Shown in pieces: positions 46,398 to 52,549 of a stretch of DNA of 64,000 nt. Both the position numbers and the translations under genes were made by a program. The notes beneath the pieces are model-generated. The model made no database searches and was not told where the DNA came from. It was given only the letters and a program-made list of their open reading frames with translations. This DNA is from Orenia metallireducens (GTDB lineage Bacteria > Bacillota > Halanaerobiia > Halobacteroidales > Halobacteroidaceae). The stretch lies in NCBI RefSeq assembly GCF_003001995.1, contig NZ_PVNB01000003.1:1-64000 (forward strand), in the 5' to 3' direction. Position 1 is the stretch's first letter; each line of letters begins with the position of its first letter.

Positions 46398-46594
46398 TTT
46401 AAATCCCCCTTAACTATAATTATTATATGGATATCGTTTTCCACATCAGTCTCTAACAAGTAATCTTAGATAAATATTGTTGTTCATCCTTATTTTATCA
46501 TTATCTAGATAGCTATTCAATTGCTATTATTTCTAATTCAACTCTAAAATCATCTCAATTGAAACTAGCTAATATTTATCAACTAAGAAAAGTA

Positions 46595-46621
46595 ACAATG
46601 AATTGTTCATATACATATTAT
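46595..46621 (+). promoter_or_regulatory. SigK-like promoter of the first YmaF gene
   Basis: GTAAC (AC at 46595-46596) is followed after 17 bp by CATATTAT (46614-46621), which fits CATANNNT. The pattern AC-N16/17-CATANNNT matches the known SigK consensus. Confidence 0.6.
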
Positions 46622-46646
46622 AAAGAAGATAAAAGGAGGGATTAAA

Positions 46647-46991
46647 ATGGGAAAGTACCCTGATGATGAAAGACCTGTTAGAGATAGGATATATCATCTA
46701 CATAGATATAAGGGGGTTACTTCCAATGAAGAGGAGCATGATCATACTTATGAAGCAGTAACAGGACCCCCTATCTATGAGAATAATACTCACTACCATG
46801 GTTATCACTCTACAACCAATGTTGTTCAAAGGCATAAGCATAGCTGCCAAGGAAGAACAGGACCAGCAATTCCAAATCTTGTTGGTCATATCCATCTACT
46901 TGATGGAAGAACAGATTTTGCAGATAATCATAGACACAACTATCAGAGTAAGACCTCCAATCCAATCATAAAAATTAGTGATGAAGACTGA
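46647..46991 (+). CDS. His-rich YmaF family protein (first copy)
   Basis: This 114-residue hydrophilic protein contains six HxH pairs (HLH, HDH, HYH, HKH, HIH, HRH) whose first residues are spaced 14, 18, 14, 18, 14 apart. Aromatic-x-G-x-T turns follow most of them. The 32-residue repeat suggests a beta-rich solenoid with regularly placed metal-binding His. YmaF is a Bacillus family of unknown function. The start MGKYP is shared with the next gene. AAAGGAGGG precedes the ATG. The SigK-like promoter suggests expression in the mother cell late in sporulation (inference). Confidence 0.8.
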   Translation: MGKYPDDERPVRDRIYHLHRYKGVTSNEEEHDHTYEAVTGPPIYENNTHYHGYHSTTNVVQRHKHSCQGRTGPAIPNLVGHIHLLDGRTDFADNHRHNYQSKTSNPIIKISDED

Positions 46992-47015
46992 TAACTAGTA
47001 TTTTAAAAATTTGTA

Positions 47016-47041
47016 ACCAATTATTATCTATCCCATATCAT
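47016..47041 (+). promoter_or_regulatory. SigK-like promoter of the second YmaF gene
   Basis: GTAAC (AC at 47016-47017), 16 bp, then CATATCAT (47034-47041). It fits AC-N16/17-CATANNNT. Confidence 0.62.
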
Positions 47042-47065
47042 AATCTTGAGAAAGGAGGACTATAA

Positions 47066-47503
47066 ATGGGTAAATATCAAAGAGATAGAGAACGTAGAAG
47101 AGATCCAAGGGATCCTGGATGTCCACGTAGACCAGGAAGAACAAAGAATGAAAATCCTGATTTTCCAGATTTTCCAGACTTCCCCGATTTTCCAGACATA
47201 CCTGAACCTGAAAGAAGACAGCATGTGCACAATTATCGTGGTATAACCTCTTATGATGATAGACACCGCCATCGGTTTGAAGGTCAAACTGGTAGACCTA
47301 TCCATAATGGAGATACCCATTACCATAACTACCAAGGTGTAACTACCACCGATGATGGGCATCAGCACCATTATCGGGGCAGAACTGGACCAGCAATTAA
47401 CACTAGACGTGGTCACATCCATGAGATGGCAGGAGAAACAAGCCTCAATGATGGACATCGCCATAATTATGAAGAGAGCACTTCTCGTCCAATTCCAGAA
47501 TAA
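47066..47503 (+). CDS. His-rich YmaF family protein with PDF repeats (second copy)
   Basis: This 145-residue paralogue of the preceding gene has an N-terminal extension: an Arg-rich start (MGKYQRDRERRRDPRDPG), then four to five PDF tripeptides (NPDFPDFPDFPDFPDIPEP). The six HxH pairs (HVH, HRH, HYH, HQH, HIH, HRH) repeat the spacing 14, 18, 14, 18, 14 exactly, with G-x-T turns between. AAAGGAGGA precedes the ATG. A structural role in a spore layer or metal binding is plausible but not shown. Confidence 0.8.
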   Translation: MGKYQRDRERRRDPRDPGCPRRPGRTKNENPDFPDFPDFPDFPDIPEPERRQHVHNYRGITSYDDRHRHRFEGQTGRPIHNGDTHYHNYQGVTTTDDGHQHHYRGRTGPAINTRRGHIHEMAGETSLNDGHRHNYEESTSRPIPE

Positions 47504-47510
47504 TTTCTGA

Positions 47511-47537
47511 TAAGCCACAGGTTTAAACCTGTGGCTC
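47511..47537 (+). terminator. Hairpin after the second YmaF gene
   Basis: The palindrome GCCACAGGTTTAAACCTGTGGC (47513-47534 region) lies 10 bp after the stop codon. The T-run after it is poor, so termination may be weak. Confidence 0.6.
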
Positions 47538-47678
47538 AATATTATAATAAAACAAATACAAAATCTTTAATAATTTCTATATAACATCATACTTATGCTT
47601 ATACTCAAACTCAATCTATTATACTATCTCCATTACCCTATAATTTTCCTATATTGAACTCCAACAAATATATTGGTA

Positions 47679-47705
47679 ACTATTTCTTAAGCAACTGCAT
47701 AACAT
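47679..47705 (+). promoter_or_regulatory. SigK-like promoter of the small basic peptide gene
   Basis: GTAAC (AC at 47679-47680), 17 bp, then CATAACAT (47698-47705). Confidence 0.6.
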
Positions 47706-47736
47706 AGCATTAACAGAAAAGGGGTGATTATCACAA

Positions 47737-47832
47737 ATGGGAGGATATCCAAAAAAATATGATGATGGTAAAGGTAAAAAAGGTAGAAAAGATAGAAGGC
47801 GTAGAAAGAAAAGATATTCAACTGAAAAATAA
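47737..47832 (+). CDS. 31-residue strongly basic peptide
   Basis: The reading frame begins MGGYPKKYDD and continues with a block of Lys, Arg and Gly (GKGKKGRKDRRRRKKR), ending YSTEK. AGGGGTGAT lies about 10 bp before the ATG. A SigK-like promoter precedes it and a strong terminator follows the stop codon, so it looks like a real small gene. The MG-x-Y start and the basic tract recall the N-terminus of the neighbouring YmaF genes. It may be a small spore coat or DNA/polymer-binding peptide, but I do not recognise a family. Confidence 0.65.
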   Translation: MGGYPKKYDDGKGKKGRKDRRRRKKRYSTEK

Positions 47833-47839
47833 ATAAGAA

Positions 47840-47870
47840 TAAGGTGAGCAAAATGCTCACCTTATTCTTA
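47840..47870. terminator. Bidirectional terminator between the small peptide gene and ribH
   Basis: AATAAGGTGAGC pairs with GCTCACCTTATT across an AAAAT loop. It serves both converging transcripts. Confidence 0.85.
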
Positions 47871-47880
47871 TTTAAAATTA

Positions 47881-48354
47881 TTAAAATTGATTCATTAAAT
47901 TTGCCATCTCTAATGCTCCAACTGCTGCTTCCCAACCTTTATTCCCTGCTTTAGTACCAGCTCTCTCGATAGCCTGTTCAATAGTATCTGTCGTAAGAAT
48001 TCCAAACATCACCGGTAATCCACTGTCTAAACTGACCTTGGATATACCCTTAGATGCCTCTGCACAAACATAATCAAAGTGTGGTGTAGCACCTCTAATT
48101 ACCGCCCCTAAACAGATAATAGCATCGTAGTTGTTAGTAGTTGCCATCTTCTTAGCTACTAAAGGAACTTCAAAAGCTCCAGGAACCCAAGCAACCTCTA
48201 TATCCTCTTCCTTTACTCCATGGCGCTTTAATGCATCCAATGCTCCACTTAATAATCTACTAGAGATAAACTCATTAAACCTTCCCACTATAATTCCAAA
48301 TTTAAGTCCTGCTCCTATTAACTTTCCTTCATATGATTTAGCGAAATTATTCAT
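47881..48354 (-). CDS. ribH: 6,7-dimethyl-8-ribityllumazine synthase
   Basis: It condenses the pyrimidinedione from the RibD branch with dihydroxybutanone phosphate, the penultimate riboflavin step. It has 157 residues with [19 protein letters not shown], the [16 protein letters not shown] segment and [21 protein letters not shown]. It is the last gene of the rib cluster, separated from ribBA by 422 bp holding a repeat element. Confidence 0.96.
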
Positions 48355-52372: not shown

Positions 52373-52407
52373 AGTTCGTAAATAAGATTAATCTTATTTT
52401 ACTATAT

Positions 52408-52516
52408 CACTTCTTCTCTCTTCCAGACTTTAACTGTCGGCTCTGGAATCTCACCAGATCTGCTTGCGCTCGCGGGCTATTACCGCCGGTTAGGAATTAC
52501 ACCTGACCCCGAAGAA
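52408..52516 (-). promoter_or_regulatory. FMN riboswitch (RFN element)
   Basis: The minus strand shows the conserved RFN order: TTCTTCGGGGTCAGGTG, TTCCTAACCGGCGGTAAT, AGCCCGCGAGC, GCAGATCTGGTGAGATTCC, GAGCCGACAGTTAAAGTCTG, GAAGAGAGAAGAA. FMN binding would lead to termination at the hairpin at 52332-52372 and shut off the rib operon. Confidence 0.96.
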
Positions 52517-52549
52517 TTTAACATTATTAAATTTTATACTTTACAAATA

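Follow-up and report, generated by a model that had tools for sequence, protein, structure and literature searches.

Three small genes follow one another in the genome of Orenia metallireducens, each with nearly the same promoter-like sequence in front of it, and the question raised by this locus is whether these sequences are promoters of SigK and whether the gene products belong to the outer layers of the spore. Two of the genes encode members of YmaF, a conserved family that has received little functional work so far, and the third encodes a basic peptide of 31 amino acids. The window analysed here is the whole stretch of 64,000 nucleotides that contains them, and its features are listed in Table 1 together with the sigma factor genes discussed below.

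Table 1. Features of the three-gene locus and sigma factor genes considered in the text. Positions without a prefix refer to the window; other positions are given by genome (G000 is the present one) and contig.
Feature	Position	Strand	Details
SigK-type promoter 1	46592..46622	+	GTAAC-N17-CATATTATA; AC at 46595
YmaF-family gene 1	46647..46991	+	114 aa; PF12788, 72 bits (cut-off 27); genome search E 2.8e-19
SigK-type promoter 2	47013..47042	+	GTAAC-N16-CATATCATA; AC at 47016
YmaF-family gene 2	47066..47503	+	145 aa; PF12788, 84.4 bits (cut-off 27)
Perfect palindrome, terminator-like hairpin	47513..47536		AGCCACAGGTTTAAACCTGTGGCT; separates gene 2 from promoter 3; fold -18.2 kcal/mol, z -6.4
SigK-type promoter 3	47676..47706	+	GTAAC-N17-CATAACATA; AC at 47679
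Basic peptide gene	47737..47832	+	31 aa, Lys/Arg-rich; MGGYPKKYDDGKGKKGRKDRRRRKKRYSTEK
Long hairpin after third gene	47832..47872		before convergent ribH; fold -29.2 kcal/mol, z -11.5
ribH	47881-48354	-	convergent to the 31-aa peptide gene
FMN riboswitch	52407-52520	-	RF00050, 113.6 bits
SigE-like gene	G000 C6:145409-146038		intact
sigK, 5' half	G000 C31:30780-30992		profile positions 2-72
Split sigK locus	G000 C31:30780-32481		L075
Split sigK locus	G002 C6/C7		L078, L077
Split sigK locus	G007 C87/C44		L080, L079
Split sigK locus	G010 C35:22893-25549		L081
Intact sigK and second 3' half	G001 C8:29114-35147		L076; 3' half 5 kb downstream

The original prediction had placed GTAAC-N16/17-CATANNNTA before each of the three genes, and all three sites were recovered exactly where it had put them; they are the only GTAAC-type sites in the whole window. 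Each combines an AC -35, a spacer of 16-17 bp and a CATANNNT -10. The SigK consensus of Bacillus is MWCM-16-CATANNNTD (PMC9562818), and the -35 with its flanks reads AACA in site 1, AACC in site 2 and AACT in site 3, the final T of site 3 falling outside M. The start codons at 46647, 47066 and 47737, assigned from ribosome-binding sites, lie 24-31 bp beyond the promoter ends, with the ribosome-binding site in between. A second species of the genus (G001) retains the three sites with altered spacer sequences; the counterpart of promoter 1 there is GTAACACTCAAATATTGATAAACATATTATA, and that of promoter 3 is GTAACTATTTCCTGATCAATCACATACTATA, ahead of the orthologue of the 31-aa peptide. Preservation of the motif before orthologous genes, with drifting spacers, is found in G001, G002 and G005.

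Regarding the organization of the locus, the palindrome between gene 2 and promoter 3 suggests that the third gene is transcribed as a unit of its own. Its peptide has an orthologue with 78% identity in G001 and none in the six remaining genomes of the family, and searches of Pfam and NCBIfam gave no match to it; for this gene a SigK reading is suggested by the promoter and that one orthologue. The adjacency of YmaF and ribH is preserved in G001, G002 and G005. A riboflavin-linked role for the YmaF genes was considered and rejected, because ribH is convergent and lies behind a hairpin, so that no shared transcription is implied. The riboflavin genes adjoining the YmaF cluster are themselves preceded by an FMN riboswitch on the minus strand.

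Promoters of YmaF genes were compared across the phylum in a sample of 100 genes from 46 families. Start codons were set by a rule based on ribosome-binding sites, and the stretch from 15 to 140 bp before each was examined. AC-N16/17-CATANNNT was found in 50 of the 100 upstream regions, a count that does not stand for 50 independent events because the genomes are related and that becomes 20.7 of 46 when weighted by family. About two were expected: dinucleotide shuffles gave a mean of 2.2 and a maximum of 7 (300 shuffles), the same stretches read on the opposite strand gave 1/100, and other genes of the same loci gave 1/67. The commonest spacers are 17 and 16, the motif mostly ends 19-61 bp ahead of the start codon, and A or C is favoured on either side of AC, which is the M-AC-M form of the SigK -35. 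Besides the family of the window itself, the full GTAAC occurs in six other families. Across the phylum, T is favoured at -2 and A or C at -1, and G at -3 only mildly, so that this lineage adds its own preference for GTA to the general M-AC. The strict motif is missing from half of the 100 regions, and a relaxed form is also missing from 39 of the 100. As B. subtilis ymaF moreover has an early, SigE/F-type promoter (PMC4410918), SigK control of YmaF is not universal. In other genera of the class, YmaF genes (five loci) have CGTA in place of CATA in the -10 at the right spacing, as in AACATATTTACTCTCTCCTGCGTAAAATA; this is possibly a lineage variant of the SigK -10.

Two other regulators of the mother cell have to be weighed as the source of these sequences. 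GTAAC could be a binding site for SpoIIID that overlaps the promoter and adds SpoIIID timing to a mother-cell sigma factor. One SpoIIID box of C. difficile is TGTAACAAT (PMC5025042) and site 1 reads AGTAACAAT, but sites 2 and 3 (GTAACC and GTAACT) fit the box more poorly, and in the sites of the six other families GTAAC stands at a constant, -35-like distance of 16-17 bp from CATA. The two readings are not mutually exclusive, although we consider a SpoIIID site unlikely. A still less probable alternative is that SigE, acting early in the mother cell, reads the three genes instead of SigK. The CATA-type -10 is common to both mother-cell sigma factors, the early promoter of B. subtilis ymaF is of the SigE/F type, and the present genome has an intact SigE-like gene and only half of sigK. 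However, none of the three sites has the SigE -35 (ATA) at the right position, and among the 100 YmaF upstream regions SigE-type sites number 1, with 0.45 expected, compared with 50 for the AC type, counts from which SigE is unlikely as the reader of these promoters. In C. difficile, moreover, the YmaF-like gene CD3620 stands at 0.04 in a sigK mutant and only at 0.34 in a sigE mutant (PMC3789822).

That the matches are accidents of a loose consensus in AT-rich DNA is hardly credible, even though bare AC-N17-CATANNNTA occurs about as often in this genome as its reversed control (182 sites against 172), since AC-N16/17-CATANNNT occurs in 1.3% of 125-bp stretches of the window, so that three of three upstream regions would carry it by chance with a probability of about 2e-6 before GTA is counted, the sites persist in G001, and the motif turns up repeatedly in YmaF promoters. 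The bare SigK consensus, being at background level, was rejected as standalone evidence in this genome. The longer form GTAAC-N16/17-CATANNNTA is enriched genome-wide, with 12 sites against 3 for the control (all counts are pattern searches, and the control is the pattern read backwards), and 3 of the 12 are at this locus. With the bare form at background, it is the GTA prefix that carries the weight in this genome, which bears out the view that GTA before AC strengthens the case. Counts of GTAAC-type sites in the eight genomes of the family range over 5-12 per genome, against 1-3 for the reversed controls.

Most of the remaining GTAAC sites of this genome and of the family stand before sporulation-type genes. 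These include a YlmC/YmxH sporulation protein, identified by TIGR02888 in this genome and with similar proteins in four others; a LysM protein near SafA/ExsA (TIGR02899, 60 bits, short of the 67.85 cut-off); tiny hydrophobic peptides, behind which lie genes that by eye resemble coat F; and Asp/Ser-rich repeat proteins. Three of the 12 sites in this genome look like chance matches, two of them lying within genes of the opposite strand and one having no evident downstream gene. In several genomes of the family (five loci) a GTAAC-type SigK-like promoter precedes a conserved peptide of 39-40 aa (MKxDFLFAWSKNEHD...GGFKLP...), to which Pfam and NCBIfam gave no match.

The state of sigK itself is relevant to a SigK reading. 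In this genome only the 5' half of the gene is found, running into a recombinase gene, and neither profile nor DNA search finds the 3' half in the assembly, which is most simply explained as an assembly gap. The gene is similarly broken in G002, G007 and G010, and the sequence of the 5' breakpoint, AATACTAACGTAA, is identical in G000 and G002. In these loci a skin-like element interrupts sigK near profile position 70 and carries a convergent recombinase gene of about 485 aa; the element of G010 is about 2 kb and contains little beyond the recombinase. The layout is that of the skin element of C. difficile and B. subtilis, where a large serine recombinase excises the element before SigK is made (PMC5025042). 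Because the cut 5' half adjoins the recombinase gene, SigK of this organism could probably be made only after a similar excision. G001 has an intact sigK and also a second 3' half, before which stands a sequence that looks like a right junction and resembles that of G002; this second half may have been left behind by a skin-like element that was duplicated or rearranged.

The family is almost confined to genomes that have sporulation sigma factors. In the phylum sample, a SigE/SigK-type match was found in 96 of 97 YmaF-positive genomes and in 244 of 301 YmaF-negative ones (Fisher p 7e-7, uncorrected for relatedness). Within the class, sigK, whole or split, is present in 12 of 13 YmaF-positive genomes, and the genomes that lack sigK also lack YmaF, with the single exception of G041, an assembly that is 93% complete.

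The original prediction put forward a spore role of YmaF as one not known to be described; it is wrong that such a role is undescribed. CD3620 is SigK-dependent by the mutant values given above and is also marked as spore-detected (PMC3789822). The homologue CDIF27147_03838, assumed here to be the same gene, was found in exosporium/coat-enriched extracts, and the recombinant protein bound E-cadherin, its surface exposure being called unclear (PMC13339774). In addition to its sporulation promoter, B. subtilis ymaF is a germination Tn-seq hit (PMC6568419). A link between YmaF and the spore was therefore already known, and what is new is how widely the promoter evidence extends, together with the ladder of histidine pairs described below. 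The rest of that claim, transcription by SigK in the mother cell and a role in the spore, is strongly supported by the sequence comparison, through the count of 50 in 100 and the M-AC-M flanks.

The likeness to these systems is partial. C. difficile shares with the present locus the YmaF family, but it is another organism, the published regulon table lists no SigK promoter for CD3620, and the present locus combines two adjacent YmaF genes with a basic-peptide gene. B. subtilis ymaF has the YmaF domain and sporulation-associated transcription, but it has an early promoter and belongs to an operon with miaA and hfq (ymaF-miaA-hfq), whereas here the promoters are SigK-type and the neighbours are nth/esterase-like genes and ribH.

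The product of YmaF gene 2 contains six His-x-His pairs, at residues 53, 67, 85, 99, 117 and 131; the pairs at 53, 67 and 85 are invariant and the other three nearly so among 84 homologues. The repeat is a 32-residue unit in which the pairs are spaced by 14/18. This conserved ladder most likely holds divalent metal ions. Among solved structures the sole sequence match is the tip of the phage T4 gp37 fibre (2xgf, E 0.042), a marginal and composition-biased match, and the arrangement HxH-x3-GxTS-x4-HxH with spacings of 14 and 32 is present in both proteins. In HxH fibres, the pairs of three chains, six histidines in all, hold an iron ion (PMC6116203). A gp37-like needle would be an intertwined trimer with one metal at each HxH level. 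The AlphaFold model of YmaF, made for the monomer, shows a compact all-beta domain, and its pLDDT exceeds 90 for most of residues 52-145. A PDB fold search with the model gave no significant match (best Foldseek E 0.075), the best VIA-align Z of 5.5 was a weak one to the small designed-type barrel BBn6, and the viral-protein fold search was likewise without a significant match. The matches listed in these fold searches do not include gp37, and a tblastn search of phage records with YmaF gene 2 gave no match.

Combining this information, the three promoters are real SigK-type promoters and very probably functional, on a family linked to spores. We regard as highly probable an account in which each of the two YmaF genes and the basic-peptide gene would be transcribed from its own promoter, late in sporulation and in the mother cell, by RNA polymerase bearing SigK, which would read GTAAC as an extended -35 together with the CATANNNTA -10. 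The products would then be small structural or metal-binding proteins placed in the coat or exosporium, with the YmaF ladder holding metal. SigK dependence and a spore location of these particular products are what the sequence predicts, and a place in the outer layers would be expected by analogy with the C. difficile relatives. The three genes thus most likely encode spore-envelope proteins of a known kind. A broader reading is possible, if on balance doubtful, in which YmaF would be a widespread class of SigK-made envelope proteins whose six-pair ladder would hold metal ions (iron, zinc or manganese) in a row, either within a small beta barrel or as a gp37-like oligomeric, metal-pinned needle, giving the spore a metal-loaded surface structure.

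For the family, SigK-type YmaF promoters in more than 20 bacterial families unite hints that had been scattered over a regulon entry of C. difficile, a proteomic hit and a Tn-seq hit. They lead to the general prediction that YmaF would be a spore protein of the late mother cell, and the conserved ladder of histidine pairs makes metal binding a property that can be tested concretely and cheaply.
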